Below are positions 4,457 to 23,753 of a DNA stretch of 45,366 nucleotides, piece by piece. This stretch comes from a virus. The position numbers were made by a program, and so were the translations under genes. The DNA is taken from IMG/VR virus record IMGVR_UViG_3300012002_000052, positions 1 through 45,366 of that record; one strand, 5' to 3'. The notes beneath the pieces are model-generated. The model did no database searches. It was not told the origin of the DNA and saw only the letters and a list, made by a program, of their open reading frames with translations. Position 1 is the first letter of the stretch, and each line of letters begins with the position of its first letter.

Positions 4457-4601
4457 AAGCCCGCTTTAAATTTCAATCTTATATATCTTTTCTTATATCT
4501 AATAAAAGCCCGCTTTAATCTCTCAATCCTTTACGCTCTTACTCTATTATATACCTGTTTTTTAAAATGTCAAGTAAAAAATCAATAAGCCCGCTTTTAA
4601 T
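4457..4601. repeat. Three AAGCCCGCTTT near-palindromes
   Basis: AAGCCCGCTTTAAA (4457), AAAAGCCCGCTTTAAT (4504) and AAGCCCGCTTTTAAT (4587) occur in otherwise AT-rich DNA. The core AAGC-CC-GCTT is an inverted repeat with a 2-bp centre. Further cores occur just after stop codons of early genes (about 5037, 5688 and 7361). They could be operators. The heptamer AGCCCGC is common throughout the genome, including coding DNA, so specificity is uncertain. Confidence 0.5.
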
Positions 4602-11383: not shown

Positions 11384-11554
11384 TTATTCTTTGTGTTCTC
11401 TTATTCTCCACTGTCTTTTAGTCTCCGCAAGTGCGTTCGTGTTTTTCTTTAAGTCCGCTTTTAGCTTAAGCTGTTCTCGGACTAATTGTGTCTCATAATT
11501 CTCCAACTCATCCTCTGTCATCTTGCGTATCTCGTTACTGCTTTTATATCTCAT
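11384..11554 (-). CDS. Small charged coiled-coil protein
   Basis: 56 aa, easily missed. ATG 11554 is preceded by AGGAG with 6-nt spacing; two further in-frame ATGs at 11557 and 11560 lie too close to the site. It is almost wholly helical and charged (KMTEDELENYETQLVREQLK then KADLKKNTNALAETKRQ), a short coiled coil. It overlaps the upstream gene's end by 11 bp and precedes SSB. Confidence 0.6.
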   Translation of the reverse strand: MRYKSSNEIRKMTEDELENYETQLVREQLKLKADLKKNTNALAETKRQWRIREHKE

Positions 11555-13393: not shown

Positions 13394-13951
13394 TTATATC
13401 CAACCTTTATTTTTTGCAAATCCTTTTGCTATTTTATACGCTTCATATACAATATCATAATCAAAACATTCCATTTTAAACTTTTCGTCTCCGATATGTT
13501 TTTCCCAATATTTCCATGAATAAGTTTTATGTCCTATTTGAAGATTTGTTCTGTGTGCTATAATAGCATATTCACATATTCCTCTTATAACAAATATCCC
13601 TTTTGTCTTTCGTAAATCTGTCCCATGTAGATTTGCAAATCGTAATTCTGAAAATAGCAAATCTGCAAATCGTAAATCTGTGTCTCGTAAACTTGCGTTC
13701 CATAAGTTTACACCCCGTATATTTGCGCCCCATAAATTTGCGTATCGCAGGTCTGCAAAGCGTAGATTTGCGTTCCACATATCTACAAAACGTAAATTTG
13801 CGTATTGTAAACTTGTATTCTGTAAGTCTACCCCACGTAGATCAACGGAAAAATATTCATTCACATTGAAACAAAACCGCATGTATCGATTCCATTTCGT
13901 TACACTTGATTTTAATAACGCTATTCGTTTCGCTTTTAGGTTACCGCTCAT
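13394..13951 (-). CDS. Pentapeptide-repeat protein
   Basis: 185 aa. From about residue 38 to 118 it has tandem pentapeptides of the A(D/N)LXX kind (VDLQN, ANLRF, ADLRY, ANLWG, ANIRG, ASLRD, TDLRF), predicting a right-handed square beta-helix. Some such proteins mimic DNA and protect gyrase or other DNA enzymes. The repeats give a conspicuous DNA-level periodicity and spurious open frames on the other strand. The C-terminal 65 residues are non-repetitive and contain Trp/Tyr (KTYSWKYWEKHIG). It starts after GGAGGTGGAAGA and overlaps the DUF5131 gene by 4 bp. Confidence 0.88.
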   Translation of the reverse strand: MSGNLKAKRIALLKSSVTKWNRYMRFCFNVNEYFSVDLRGVDLQNTSLQYANLRFVDMWNANLRFADLRYANLWGANIRGVNLWNASLRDTDLRFADLLFSELRFANLHGTDLRKTKGIFVIRGICEYAIIAHRTNLQIGHKTYSWKYWEKHIGDEKFKMECFDYDIVYEAYKIAKGFAKNKGWI

Positions 13952-14646
13952 TCTTCCACCTCCAATTTAAAATTATCTGGTATTTCCCGCAAGAACGGTA
14001 GACTATATACATCAACGTACTGTTTCATCGCGTCTTTCATCCATAGACTGATGCCTAAATCTCTCGTTTGATCAATCAAGCTCTTAATCCACTCGCGCAC
14101 AAGATAAGGAGTTCCTTTTCTACTACCTCTCTGGCCCGTCTCCGGGCCGACAATAATCCATTCTGTTCTTTTATATGGCCCTAAATCGATTGGCCCGAAC
14201 ATTGGTTCTATCGAAAAAAAATAAATACCCTTCGCGCGACTAAGCACAACATCATATTCGCTTTGATTAGTAACAGTATACCCAAAATGGATTTTATCTC
14301 GTTCCGCCATAAATTCTTTTTGATAATAAGGCGCTTTCGTCAAGAATAAATAGTGGTGCCGAGGGTTGTCTCTTATCTTGCTCATAATGTTTTTGATCCA
14401 CCACGGAGCCCAATATTCAGGATCACTTAATGCGCCGACAAAAATCCGAGCGGGCTTTTTAGGAAAATCTTTGTGGAAAAAGTCCTCTACAAATACCGGC
14501 TCTGAAAAATTATCACACTGAAACGCCGGAAACCGGTCAACCAACTTCCGAGCGTAGCAATACCGACATCCACGCCTACACCCGATGACAGGATTCCAGA
14601 CGTGGGTCGCCCAGTCTATAGAGGATCTGCTTATTGTATTACTCAT
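13948..14646 (-). CDS. DUF5131 (phage Gp37/Gp68) family protein, radical-SAM-like
   Basis: 232 aa. Opens WATHVWNPVIGCRRGCRYCYA with C23, C27 and C30 in the CxxxCxxC spacing that binds a radical-SAM 4Fe-4S cluster. It continues with IFVGALSDPEYWAPWW, a HHYLFLTKAP strand and FFSIEPMFGPIDLG, all characteristic of this family, common in phages and mobile DNA. The reaction is unknown. Location between the pentapeptide gene and a set of small genes suggests an accessory modification or anti-host role. ATG 14646 follows AGGAGG. Confidence 0.85.
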   Translation of the reverse strand: MSNTISRSSIDWATHVWNPVIGCRRGCRYCYARKLVDRFPAFQCDNFSEPVFVEDFFHKDFPKKPARIFVGALSDPEYWAPWWIKNIMSKIRDNPRHHYLFLTKAPYYQKEFMAERDKIHFGYTVTNQSEYDVVLSRAKGIYFFSIEPMFGPIDLGPYKRTEWIIVGPETGQRGSRKGTPYLVREWIKSLIDQTRDLGISLWMKDAMKQYVDVYSLPFLREIPDNFKLEVEE

Positions 14647-14697: not shown

Positions 14698-14985
14698 TTA
14701 CAAAATATCATGTATTGTATTAGAATATTTATGTATAACCCAATTGCCGGTTGAAGTTTCTATTTTCATATTGATACAAAAATATTCTGAAATCCACTTC
14801 AAAAAATCATAATATCTATCTGTTTTTTCAGATAGCTTAATATGATTTATTTTCTTACCGCTAAAATCAAAATTAATTTTATCTAAATTAATTTCTTTAG
14901 CAAGGCTTATTCCCTCTTCAGTCACATCATGCTTTTTTAAAATATCGATTGTTATATTCATTCTACGATCCCTATGTTTATCCAT
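14698..14985 (-). CDS. Small hypothetical protein, paralogue of the gene at 16237-16653
   Basis: 95 aa from ATG 14985, chosen for AGGAGG at 6-7 nt; longer frames would start inside the upstream gene. The stretch DRYYDFLKWISEYFCINM and on to NWVI lines up with DKYWQFYVWFTKNFYVNM to EWLV in the protein at 16237, sharing D-Y-F-W-F-N-M-E-W positions. The two are probably diverged copies. Function unknown. Confidence 0.65.
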   Translation of the reverse strand: MDKHRDRRMNITIDILKKHDVTEEGISLAKEINLDKINFDFSGKKINHIKLSEKTDRYYDFLKWISEYFCINMKIETSTGNWVIHKYSNTIHDIL

Positions 14986-17963: not shown

Positions 17964-18173
17964 TTATTCAAACAAACCGACAAAATTATCAGCCTTTGAT
18001 CCCCACCAGCCTTTAAAGCCGTTAAGGATATTTTGAGCCCGTGTCTCTCTCATGCCTATATCTGTGTCATTATCACAATCAGATAATAAAGCATGCTCTA
18101 ACAAGTCTTTTGTCGTTAATACACACGCAATCCCAATTACTCCCTCATCGTGTTTTGTAGTAAAATACTCCAT
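17964..18173 (-). CDS. Small acidic hypothetical protein
   Basis: 69 aa from ATG 18173 behind AAGGAGACAGAGTG; a GTG one codon earlier is also possible. Asp/Cys-rich centre (LLSDCDNDTDIG), unrecognised. Lies between the zinc-ribbon and exonuclease genes. Confidence 0.6.
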   Translation of the reverse strand: MEYFTTKHDEGVIGIACVLTTKDLLEHALLSDCDNDTDIGMRETRAQNILNGFKGWWGSKADNFVGLFE

Positions 18174-18373
18174 CACTCTGTCTCCTTATTCTTGTTATAT
18201 TTTCTAACCCTATTATTCCACCGTTTCATCGCCCCGCCCGGCATATAATTTATTCTATTTTCTATCGGCTTAAAACCGCATTTCGGGCAGATACCAAAAT
18301 AAAACATTTTATAATCTATTAACTTAATTCCAATTATCGGTTTACTTCCACAAATAGGGCATTTTTCATTCAT
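18173..18373 (-). CDS. Lar-like zinc-ribbon protein
   Basis: 66 aa from ATG 18373 behind GGAGTTGATA; longer frames would run through the upstream hairpin. It has CPICGSKPIIG, then GICPKCGF, then GGAMKRWNNRVRK. The paired CPxCG/CxxCG knuckles and the closing W-N-x-R match restriction-alleviation Lar-type proteins. Lar modulates type I restriction in some phages; here the role is inferred from family likeness. Confidence 0.72.
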   Translation of the reverse strand: MNEKCPICGSKPIIGIKLIDYKMFYFGICPKCGFKPIENRINYMPGGAMKRWNNRVRKYNKNKETE

Positions 18374-18387
18374 TATCAACTCCAGAA

Positions 18388-18458
18388 ACAGGGCAGGGCA
18401 GTCCATGACTTGCTTTCGCTTTAGGATATAAGCCTGCGTCTATGGACTGTTGCCCTGT
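18388..18458 (-). other. Long intercistronic hairpin with a GNRA loop
   Basis: Two stacked perfect stems, ACAGGGCA/TGCCCTGT (8 bp) and CAGTCCAT/ATGGACTG (8 bp), are separated by a small asymmetric bulge. They enclose 35 nt that, on the - strand, contain GC-GAAA-GC, a classic GNRA tetraloop. It fills the 88-bp gap between the annealing-protein stop and the Lar-like start. No T-run follows, so it is an mRNA structure or small RNA rather than a standard terminator. Confidence 0.6.
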
Positions 18459-18461
18459 TGT

Positions 18462-19484
18462 TTATTCTCCTTTTAGTTTCCCATCGATATAATCAATCAT
18501 TAGCTGTTTCTGCGCGTCATCTAAGTCCGCAAACTTGATTACACCAAATTCTTTTTCCAATACCTTCATCATCTCATCAGAAGATATTACTTTATCCCTA
18601 ATAGCACACTCCGATAATTCTCTCAATCTGTCATCTAAAGTGCCTAAATTTCGCTCTGTGGGCTTCTCTGTGGCTTTATCTTTGAGCATCTTGTAGAATG
18701 CCCGCTTTTCGTCCATAGATAGCTCTGAGAAGTCTTTTGCGCCCGCTTCTTGTAACATCCCCGCAATATCATCGGTTGTCAATATCCCTTTAAAAACCAG
18801 CTCAGATTTTAATTTATTGTATGATTCCAACGCTTTTTGCTCTGCTGTTACTTGCGGGCTTCTGTCTTGTATCATACCCTCTTTAGAAGGATCGTCTTTC
18901 CATTCCTCTATGTCTACATCGAATATATCAGAAGCGGCCGTTACTGTGTTTACGCAATCCACCATAGCCCGCTTTTTCGCCATTTTTAATATGGTATTAT
19001 AAACTTCAGCAATATCGGGATTATCAGTCTTTCTCTGATAAACCCAACCGTTCAGCTTCTTAACCCTAAACCCATTGGCTTTATAATAATCCTTTCTTTC
19101 CTTCCAGTCCGATGGAATGTCCTCATCAATCGTTTCCCACCGGTATCGATATTTCGGCTCTAACGTTGTGCAAGTTCCTACCCCTGATCCTAAGTAAGCC
19201 CCGCTATTCCTATGGCGGGCTTTACAGATTACTTGATACTCCCTATGCCCGTTTTCATGATCCATCCTCTCGACTTCATACTCAAACGCAAACTGAAACA
19301 TCATGCCGATTTTCTCCGCACCGGCTTTCAGTAAGATCGGTTTATTGCTCACACCGGGCAAAGTATCATAGTGCTTCCCCTGCACCATGATAGACTCTAA
19401 CAACTCGTGTATAGCTATGCCATACTCTTTGATTGTATCAATGCTCATAATTGAGCTGTTCGATACCGCTTGAATTTCATTCAT
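18462..19484 (-). CDS. Putative single-strand annealing/recombination protein
   Basis: 340 aa. The N-terminal 200 residues contain KPILLKAGAEKIGMMFQF, then REYQVICKARHRNSG, GSGVGTCTTLEPKYRYRW and ILKMAKKRAMVDCV. This pattern recurs in phage proteins next to RecB-type exonucleases, which I take as an ssDNA-annealing family; I am not certain of the formal family. The C-terminal 120 residues hold two similar helical units (LTTDDIAGMLQEAGAKDFSE and ISSDEMMKVLEKEFGVIKFA). ATG 19484 follows AAAGGAGGATAGT. It is the gene immediately after the structured leader at 19517-19716. Confidence 0.6.
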   Translation of the reverse strand: MNEIQAVSNSSIMSIDTIKEYGIAIHELLESIMVQGKHYDTLPGVSNKPILLKAGAEKIGMMFQFAFEYEVERMDHENGHREYQVICKARHRNSGAYLGSGVGTCTTLEPKYRYRWETIDEDIPSDWKERKDYYKANGFRVKKLNGWVYQRKTDNPDIAEVYNTILKMAKKRAMVDCVNTVTAASDIFDVDIEEWKDDPSKEGMIQDRSPQVTAEQKALESYNKLKSELVFKGILTTDDIAGMLQEAGAKDFSELSMDEKRAFYKMLKDKATEKPTERNLGTLDDRLRELSECAIRDKVISSDEMMKVLEKEFGVIKFADLDDAQKQLMIDYIDGKLKGE

Positions 19485-19516
19485 ACTATCCTCCTTTTGT
19501 TATATCACAAAATAAA

Positions 19517-19716
19517 TCCGCCGGGGGCAGAAGGTTTGTTAAGGAGCGCCCCCTAAGCGGATATTATATTTTCTAACCCTTACCCGCAAATATTTCACGG
19601 CAAAGGGTGATAACAATATTTTGTATGTCATCACCCGCCGCTACCTACACACACTCTCCCAAACATGTATAGGTTTATATCCAAAGATATGGATTATAGC
19701 CTTAGAGTGGGAGAGT
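19517..19716. other. Structured intergenic region with three consecutive hairpins
   Basis: Part of a 439-bp gene-free stretch (19485-19923). Hairpin 1: TCCGC-GGGGGC with GCCCCC-GCGGA (19517-19561). Hairpin 2: GGGTGAT with ATCACCC (19605-19636). Hairpin 3: ACTCTCCCA with TGGGAGAGT (19653-19716), enclosing a second stem AGG..ATCC/GGAT..CCT. This could be the structured leader of the annealing-protein mRNA (- strand), an independent RNA, or an origin structure. The right part of the gap, 19765-19923, is very AT-rich, with a sigma-54-like site. Confidence 0.55.
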
Positions 19717-19728
19717 TTCGCATTCTAA

Positions 19729-19762
19729 TTATATATACAAACAAAGTCCGCTTTTTCCTAAA
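19729..19762 (-). promoter_or_regulatory. Promoter-like element, copy A
   Basis: On the - strand, TTTAGGAAAAAGCGGACTT, four variable bases and TGTATATATAA match 30 of 34 positions with 23625-23658 on the + strand. The AT-rich end resembles a -10 region. Reading direction leads into the hairpin leader and the annealing-protein gene. No consensus -35 is present, so it may depend on a phage or host activator, or be an operator. Confidence 0.5.
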
Positions 19763-22386: not shown

Positions 22387-22492
22387 GATCCACCTCCTTT
22401 ATCTCGCTATCAATAACTTTTTTGATAAGCCCTATGCCTTTCGGGTATACATACGGCGTTGATGTAGTGTGTGCGTTGCCTTGATTAATCAT
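22379..22492 (-). CDS. 37-aa hypothetical peptide
   Basis: Easily missed. ATG 22492 has a strong GGAGG at 6 nt and overlaps the stop of the GIY-YIG gene; the stop overlaps the next start. Sequence begins MINQGNAHTTSTPYVYPKGI. Perfect operon packing on both sides argues it is translated. Function unknown. Confidence 0.6.
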   Translation of the reverse strand: MINQGNAHTTSTPYVYPKGIGLIKKVIDSEIKEVDHE

Positions 22493-23171
22493 CTGTCGCC
22501 TCCTTGTCTATTATACTTTTAATTAAAATATCTATTTCTTTTATATCATCATTTGATAAATCAAACCATTCGCCCCTTATGTTTTTATGTTTTAACTTAG
22601 CGTGAATTAATGACTCTATTTTATTTGAGTTTTTACACTCATAAACCTTTATTAATTTTAATTCATAAGGGCTTGAAGTCTGTAATGCTTTTAGCCTATT
22701 TTCAGGATCACTTGAAATTCCAATTTTATAATATTCGCTATTATGTATTATGTATAAATATTCATTTTGATAATTATTATCTGATTTATTAATATAATTT
22801 TTATTTTTTATATCTCTTGCAACATCGCACGCACTCGGCGGTTTGATATTAAAATGTTTAAAACATTTATATATTGGTTTAAAATAATAATCAATATATT
22901 TTCTCGCAATTATTTTTATAAATATCTCTGGAACAGAATTCACAGTTTTTTTGTTTTCAAGACCTTCTAAATTGATAATGCTAAATAAAAAATATTGATG
23001 GACGCTTTCTAAACATTTGTGATTTTCATAATCATCTAACCAATCATAAAAATCTAAATTAATATCACTGTTTTCGTCAAGCGTATTTGAAAATTCAAAA
23101 TACTCATTTAGAATATGCTCAACAGGAACATACTTGACTCCCAAAATCTTATTGCCTACTACTTTTTGCAT
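22485..23171 (-). CDS. GIY-YIG superfamily protein (T5orf172/MUG113-like) with novel N-terminus
   Basis: 228 aa from ATG 23171, placed by GGAGGGATTCA; a TTG at 23186 lies in the upstream terminator. Residues about 135-215 (YLYIIHNSEYYKIGISSDPENRLKALQ to ESLIHAKLKH.NIRGEWFDL) are the T5orf172-type GIY-YIG domain. The N-terminal 130 residues are Asn/Ile/Lys-rich and unrecognised. The gene is distinctly more AT-rich than its neighbours, which suggests recent acquisition. It is first in the leftward operon and lies immediately after the candidate structured RNA. Confidence 0.75.
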   Translation of the reverse strand: MQKVVGNKILGVKYVPVEHILNEYFEFSNTLDENSDINLDFYDWLDDYENHKCLESVHQYFLFSIINLEGLENKKTVNSVPEIFIKIIARKYIDYYFKPIYKCFKHFNIKPPSACDVARDIKNKNYINKSDNNYQNEYLYIIHNSEYYKIGISSDPENRLKALQTSSPYELKLIKVYECKNSNKIESLIHAKLKHKNIRGEWFDLSNDDIKEIDILIKSIIDKEATDD

Positions 23172-23184
23172 TGAATCCCTCCAC

Positions 23185-23400
23185 AAAAAAAAGCCAACCC
23201 CCGCCCGTCGCTATAAGCAACGGAAACACATGCAGGAATTGGCTTTGTAACACAAACCTTAAATACTGTGTTTTGATATTTAAAGTTCTTTTTTCAAAAT
23301 AATATACCGCTGGCTTTCTCAGTGAGCTAACACTGCTTGCAATAGAAACCCAACGGTATTTTTAAAAGGTGGTATTGTAAGCAAGCTCAATACTACCCTC
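23185..23400 (-). ncRNA. Candidate structured RNA with own -10 box and terminator
   Basis: On the - strand a TATAAT (23412-23407) places a start near 23400, right at the first hairpin. Hairpins in order: 23397-23368 (GGUAGUAUUG with CAAUACCACC, one A-C mismatch); 23359-23304 (a 16-bp stem with one G-U, one mismatch, enclosing CAGUG/CACUG); 23272-23249 (AACACA/UGUGUU); 23246-23190 (AAAGCCAA/UUGGCUUU, with inner CCGUUGC/GCGACGG), followed by a run of U. The third-party pairs in the second and last stems are G-U only when read leftward, favouring this strand; the first stem favours the other. It may be a small RNA or a leader controlling the GIY-YIG gene, whose ATG is 14 bp beyond the U-run. Confidence 0.6.
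23190..23246 (-). terminator. Forked Rho-independent terminator
   Basis: The 8-bp stem AAAGCCAA/TTGGCTTT is followed leftward by eight T in total (TTGGCTTTTTTTTG). Its 41-nt loop contains an extra 7-bp hairpin, so the structure is forked. It ends the candidate RNA just before the GIY-YIG gene's ribosome binding site. Confidence 0.65.
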
Positions 23401-23406
23401 AAATAT

Positions 23407-23412
23407 ATTATA
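23407..23412 (-). promoter_or_regulatory. Consensus -10 box (TATAAT) for the candidate RNA
   Basis: A perfect TATAAT lies 7 bp before the first hairpin. The -35 region (GGAAAA at 17-bp spacing) is a poor match, so strength is uncertain. Confidence 0.45.
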
Positions 23413-23579: not shown

Positions 23580-23624
23580 TATTAGAGGATAGTATACGCA
23601 TGGCGAAAACATACGCATATTATT

Positions 23625-23658
23625 TTTAGGAAAAAGCGGACTTACACTGTATATATAA
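23625..23658 (+). promoter_or_regulatory. Promoter-like element, copy B
   Basis: TTTAGGAAAAAGCGGACTT, four bases and TGTATATATAA; 30 of 34 positions equal to copy A at 19729-19762. It lies 14 bp before the start codon of a 26-aa peptide gene and overlaps no coding sequence. If the TATATA block is the -10, the leader is very short. Confidence 0.5.
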
Positions 23659-23672
23659 CTAAGGAGCGTAAT

Positions 23673-23753
23673 ATGTTTTCAGTAATAATCTCCCTTTTAT
23701 GGGTGGGTCTCATGGTCTATATTATGATTAAGGTTGCTAACGCTTTTAGCTAA
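23673..23753 (+). CDS. 26-aa hydrophobic peptide on the + strand
   Basis: Easily missed and isolated among leftward genes. ATG 23673 has a perfect AAGGAG at 7 nt. The peptide is one membrane segment (SVIISLLWVGLMVYIMI) with a short polar end. It is driven, if at all, by element B just upstream, and converges on the late operon's last gene. Function unknown; small phage membrane peptides may affect lysis timing or exclusion. Confidence 0.5.
   Translation: MFSVIISLLWVGLMVYIMIKVANAFS

Follow-up and report, generated by a model that had tools for sequence, protein, structure and literature searches.

A predicted two-module structured RNA with its own promoter and terminator ahead of a phage GIY-YIG operon

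From sequence and fold, we predict that the minus strand of a virus record (45,366 bases, 39% G+C; its whole length is called the window here) carries a real, well-organised RNA element with a promoter and a terminator, whose details are new. Its four hairpins form two modules, of 97 and 99 nt, built to a single plan; the first hairpin of either module has a loop complementary to a bulge in the second, and the last hairpin of the element is the terminator itself. The element ends directly ahead of the ribosome-binding site of a GIY-YIG nuclease gene, and we put the chance at about even that it is a promoter-proximal attenuator or leader RNA of the GIY-YIG operon, acting by regulated read-through; the terminated product of the leader may also act as a small RNA. 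Layout and fold support the proposal of the first-pass annotation that this is a discrete, promoter-driven, terminated structured RNA (predicted) on the minus strand, and we note that both the shared plan and the loop-bulge complementarity had been overlooked there. Table 1 lists the features discussed below.

Table 1. Coordinates of the element, its predicted parts and the neighboring features in the window.
Feature	Coordinates	Strand	Remarks
Upstream promoter box TTAGGAAAA	23428..23436	-	exact match, three window sites
-10 box TATAAT	23407..23412	-	overlapped by TGTATA at 23414-23409
P1 hairpin	23365..23400	-	13 positions per side, 10-nt loop AGCUUGCUUA (23387-23378); MFE and centroid structure
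Predicted kissing pair 1, loop half	23381..23386	-	GCUUGC with GCAAGC 23340-23335; duplex -9.2 kcal/mol
P2 hairpin	23304..23359	-	16-position lower stem, 8-nt 5' bulge AUUGCAAG (23343-23336), apical hairpin 23335-23320
A/U-rich linker between modules	23289..23303	-	
P3 hairpin	23254..23288	-	13 bp, 9-nt loop CAAAACACA (23275-23267)
Predicted kissing pair 2, loop half	23267..23273	-	AAACACA with UGUGUUU 23230-23224, 7 bp; duplex -5.9 kcal/mol
P4 terminator hairpin	23190..23246	-	15-bp lower stem, 8-nt 5' bulge AUGUGUUU (23231-23224), 7-bp apical hairpin 23223-23205
U8 tract, intrinsic terminator	23185..23192	-	sequence
Ribosome-binding site GGAGGG	23177..23182	-	2 nt past U tract, outside P4 stem
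GIY-YIG (T5orf172/MUG113) nuclease gene	22485..23171	-	PF13455 E 3.9e-21, PF10544 E 1.8e-15
Second structured leader	19508..19733	-	exact same promoter motif; z -4.5

Fold, strand and the shared plan of the two modules

As had been described from the sequence, TATAAT (23412-23407) is followed by four hairpins that fill 23400-23190 and by T8 at 23192-23185, and no ATG-initiated frame was found inside the element (among frames that touch it, the longest has 43 codons and a TTG start, and lies on the other strand). A 246-nt stretch of the minus strand folds to -79.3 kcal/mol, as compared to -56.1 +/- 4.2 kcal/mol for its dinucleotide shuffles (z -5.48, with 0/200 shuffles as good), and the plus strand folds to -59.1 kcal/mol (z -4.71). 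By this modelling the fold is convincing, for an RNA of roughly 216 nt. The two modules reach z -7.0 and -10.1, among the lowest values in the genome (1,812 windows of 100 nt, mean -0.14, sd 1.3; mononucleotide shuffles, 20 each), although they were scored at hand-picked boundaries and are therefore not strictly comparable with the tiled windows of the genome scan.

Of the 69 stem positions read on the minus strand, 57 hold Watson-Crick pairs and 10 hold G-U pairs; the other 2 are mismatches, one of which (A/C) would make the sole G-U on the plus strand. This difference (10 G-U vs 1, with the caution that the minus-strand fold supplied the stems, a choice that alone biases G-U toward that strand), together with the promoter and the U tract, fixes the orientation. 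The leftward preference had been ascribed to two stems; it is found in all four. What had been called a forked terminator is indeed a terminator, of a different form (a 15-bp stem, an 8-nt 5' bulge, and a 7-bp apical hairpin above).

The shared plan opens with a hairpin that has 13 positions and a loop of 9-10 nt; after a linker of 5-7 nt comes a stem of 15-16 positions, in which an 8-nt 5' bulge lies below the apical hairpin. The matched dimensions of the two modules are 13/13, 10/9, 16/15 and 8/8 nt. Module 1 is made of P1 and P2 (5-nt linker) and module 2 of P3 and P4 (7-nt linker). Only the plan is shared, as no significant sequence likeness was found between the modules; automatic alignment of the two ignores structure, and for this reason no two-unit model is given. 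Each loop can pair with the bulge of its own module (5 and 7 bp), as compared to 1 and 3 bp with the bulge of the other. In predicted kissing pair 1, 5 bp lie strictly inside the bulge and the sixth would recruit C23335 from the apical stem and so requires the first apical pair to open. Judging from helices of 13 and 15-16 pairs joined by 5-7 nt, the helices of each module could run alongside each other, which would bring the loop to the bulge.

When the plan is written as a strict descriptor, requiring >=9 pairs in the stems, >=4 in the apical stem and a loop-bulge run of >=5, it matches the window exactly twice, at the two modules, and has 0 matches in ten other loci. Dinucleotide-shuffled windows contain 0.21 descriptor matches each (n=300), and 0/300 have a match with stems of at least 12 and at least 13 pairs; the descriptor was devised after the structure was known, and these figures thus tell how rare such matches are and do not amount to a blind test. 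For the loop-bulge runs, random window segments with the same spacing reach at least 5 bp at 2.5% and at least 7 bp at 0.07% of positions, which gives a joint chance of ~2e-5 for both pairings (window background). When only the loop and bulge letters are shuffled, the values are 3.8% and 1.8%, jointly 7e-4. We regard module 2 as well supported and module 1 as moderately so. One further match obtained with relaxed settings (14763-14843, minus strand) was set aside, as it lies inside a coding gene.

Promoter motif, GIY-YIG operon and a second leader

The transcript is predicted from the sequence to start at about 23400. The motif TTAGGAAAA-N13-TGTATA occurs with 0 mismatches and identical spacing at three intergenic sites in the window and nowhere else, the other two sites being 19761-19734 (minus) and 23626-23653 (plus), which also have GCGGACTT-N4-TGTATATATAA in common. 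An upstream box that replaces a good -35 recalls the T4 middle promoters with their MotA box; a MotA-like activator was not identified in this phage, and the promoter pattern had 0 matches in the viral and genome collections.

The third motif copy (23626-23753, plus) precedes a 26-codon frame with a strong ribosome-binding site, which encodes the hydrophobic peptide MFSVIISLLWVGLMVYIMIKVANAFS, possibly a small membrane protein or a toxin-like peptide; ahead of this gene there is a possible 9-codon leader frame (MAKTYAYYF, 23594-23623, plus; GAGGA upstream). An 18-nt inverted repeat (89%) has one arm in the GIY-YIG coding region (23069-23086) and the other in the divergent intergenic region (23594-23611). 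A short repeat, AAGC-SS-(G/A)CTT, has 16 strand matches in place of 0.7 expected, including AAGCSSGCTT palindromes at 4457, 4506, 4587, 6646, 8162 and 32547 and the form AAGCGGACTT at 11451, 19744, 23634 and 29572. Two copies are inside the shared promoters, and the repeat could be a regulator site or an iteron.

The GIY-YIG protein, starting with the ATG at 23171, keeps the conserved residues of its family (including R159 and E201). Its gene heads a compact operon that is packed to about 19924; a short frame that has a ribosome-binding site of its own takes up the sole gap (22387-22484) and is followed by small genes of no assigned function, an MT-A70 methyltransferase and an HNH nuclease. 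No promoter of the motif type was recognised between the RNA and the genes of the operon. This AT-rich region has many weak promoter-like matches all along it, and a cryptic promoter might lie inside the operon. The genes upstream of the element end in their own terminator-like hairpin (23579-23552). Most likely, the operon depends on read-through of the terminator of the RNA. A convincing antiterminator was sought within the leader and none was found: the best pairing to the 5' arm of the terminator has -6.5 kcal/mol vs -22.6 kcal/mol for the terminator stem, and blocking the 5' arm costs 18.6 kcal/mol. Because there is no strong antiterminator, the first leader is not a two-state switch of the classical kind, and polymerase would need a trans factor to read through.

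A second leader of ~220 nt follows the motif copy at 19761-19734, with a terminator-like hairpin (19562-19516) before the gene at 18462-19484. It has two mutually exclusive pairings (14 bp, 19674-19661:19656-19643, vs 9 bp, 19716-19708:19661-19653), and a possible antiterminator shows up in its nascent fold; for both reasons the second leader looks, in these models, more switch-like than the first. No sequence in common was found between the two leaders. Further along the same strand (18387-18460), a stable hairpin (z -3.9) between two genes immediately precedes the ribosome-binding site of the gene at 18173-18406.

Searches for known classes and likeness to other systems

In line with the first-pass annotation, no known RNA class was matched: Rfam 15 at gathering level gave 0 matches in the whole window, and a permissive search gave weak ones (best 19.7 bits vs a cut-off of 94.4). 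Nucleotide similarity searches of phage and plasmid collections returned nothing credible (short matches, 11-15% coverage). No homologue of the RNA was found in phages, plasmids, exact-match pattern scans of IMG/VR, or GIY-YIG loci, and the element was not found upstream of related GIY-YIG genes (76 viral and 6 genomic loci). Applied to the viral GIY-YIG loci, the descriptor gave 16 weak matches vs 7 in shuffles, none with comparable stems. A covariance model of the RNA hit the window alone among 50 sources, with 0 hits in 18 viral records and 3 genomes. The only match of the first loop/bulge pattern in viral contigs (contig L088, 7928-7978) was attributed to chance, since it lies inside a coding gene and misfits the descriptor; the second pattern had 0 matches there. 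The phage group itself is nearly absent from databases. The window encodes a DnaB-type helicase, an exonuclease, a single-stranded DNA-binding protein and a very divergent large terminase, and contains 0 tRNA genes; queries with the GIY-YIG protein, a tail-region protein, a 340-aa operon protein and the terminase found no real relative of the phage. We also observed a DUF5131 / radical SAM mobile-pair-like protein (13948-14646, minus) in the replication-side operon.

In the absence of a matching class, the element can be compared with known systems by its design. Like attenuator and riboswitch leaders, it is a structured, promoter-proximal 5' leader with an intrinsic terminator before the first ribosome-binding site; unlike them, it has no alternative (competing antiterminator) fold that we could find, and no Rfam aptamer was matched. 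In the pistol ribozyme, the unpaired region of the second hairpin has a 5' strand that pairs with the loop of the first, and a similar loop-to-following-hairpin pairing is predicted in both modules. The modules differ from pistol in their stems of 13-16 positions, their occurrence in two copies and the lack of an Rfam match, and also in that the bulge is one-sided: the apical 3' strand runs straight into the lower stem, and there is no unpaired cleavage-site strand.

Leaders of T4-type homing endonuclease genes (I-TevI, segB, mobE, seg43(25)) also place a stable RNA directly upstream of the endonuclease ribosome-binding site (PMC2988022). These are single hairpins that mostly cover the site, whereas here there are four hairpins, two predicted pseudoknots, a U8 terminator, and a GGAGGG that stays free, 2 nt beyond both the P4 stem and the U tract, i.e., no sequestering. 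The closest case is seg43(25), whose ribosome-binding site is left free. In Aeromonas phage 25, the ribosome-binding site of a segD-like endonuclease gene is immediately preceded by a predicted, very stable hairpin that does not cover it (PMC2988022). Several T4 seg/mob genes have no promoters (PMC2988022). The putRNA of HK022 has two stem-loops with multiple bulges in ~70 nt, its putL and putR have sequence in common, and the paper on its structure mentions no pseudoknot (PMC9378689). Our element resembles it as a bulged stem-loop phage leader just past an operon promoter, with two leaders per phage, and differs in that the leaders are about 220 nt, have unrelated sequences rather than ~70-nt bulged stem-loops of common sequence, and include the terminator as part of the element. 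The put class is further defined by attachment to the zinc-binding domain of RNA polymerase, with read-through.

Possible roles of the element

Two of the alternatives would deny the element a special role as RNA. It is improbable in our estimate that we are seeing two ordinary hairpins and an ordinary terminator, with a coincidental match between modules and between loops and bulges: comparative support is absent, the complementarity of loop 1 is weak by itself (2.5% by chance, 3.8% on shuffled letters) and the descriptor was devised after the structure had been seen, yet the joint chance of both pairings is small on either background (~2e-5 or 7e-4), and 0/300 shuffled genomes match at these stem lengths. 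A structure acting in the DNA, as a recombination or replication signal with no RNA, could be imagined from imperfect bulged inverted repeats between operons. We consider it very unlikely, given the G-U count (10 vs 1 on the other strand) and a promoter and U8 tract in matching orientation.

The remaining alternatives accept the RNA and differ in what it does. It is possible, with a probability well short of even, that it is a stand-alone, trans-acting phage small RNA of ~216 nt that binds a protein or another RNA, the GIY-YIG gene having been inserted behind its terminator and living on read-through, like the promoterless homing endonuclease genes of T4-like phages. A very stable fold without an internal switch, a strong U8 terminator, an own promoter, and the precedents of the segD-like hairpin in Aeromonas phage 25 and of the promoterless T4 seg/mob genes (PMC2988022) agree with such a role; however, the entire downstream operon would then rely on leakage, a second operon with the same promoter-leader-terminator layout points to a role in cis, and the best antisense matches in the window (E 0.09-0.3) include no convincing long target. 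Processive antitermination of the HK022 put type, in which the RNA would dock on its own polymerase and help it past its own and later terminators, would account for the passage of a strong terminator, and fits the promoter-proximal position, the paired bulged stem-loops (as in putRNA; PMC9378689) and the second leader heading another operon. By analogy it seems unlikely all the same, as putL and putR are ~70 nt with common sequence, whereas the leaders here are about 220 nt with none in common, and a pseudoknot goes unmentioned in the putRNA structure paper (PMC9378689).

An attenuator with a factor that recognises the modules is favoured because the promoter-leader-terminator layout recurs at the second operon. 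Among the roles suggested in the first-pass annotation, a cis leader for the GIY-YIG gene is thus the preferred one, the terminator adjoining the ribosome-binding site of that gene, and no positive evidence was found for a decoy. An attenuator with a trans factor and a mainly terminated small RNA with leaky read-through are both compatible with the sequence. In the favoured attenuator mechanism, transcription would begin at about 23400 from the phage-type promoter, and the nascent RNA would form two side-by-side modules. In each, the loop of the long hairpin would be docked in the 8-nt bulge of the stem that follows. In module 2 this bulged stem, as the intrinsic terminator, would halt RNA polymerase 2 nt before the ribosome-binding site, so that most transcripts would end as a stable RNA of ~216 nt. 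The GIY-YIG gene and the packed downstream genes (MT-A70 methyltransferase, HNH nuclease) would be made only upon read-through, which a phage or host factor recognising the modules would regulate. More tentatively, the element may represent a new class of RNA in which a loop-into-bulge docking module occurs twice, the second copy being the terminator, and in which docking or factor binding sets the termination efficiency of the operon.

Should docking prove real, this compact RNA would unite a three-dimensional fold and an intrinsic terminator in one object, present as a tandem repeat; the element offers a short, concrete sequence for asking whether tertiary docking tunes termination. For the phage, it probably means that the virus holds back or meters the genes following the RNA, and structured leaders under one promoter type in two operons suggest a phage-wide control scheme.
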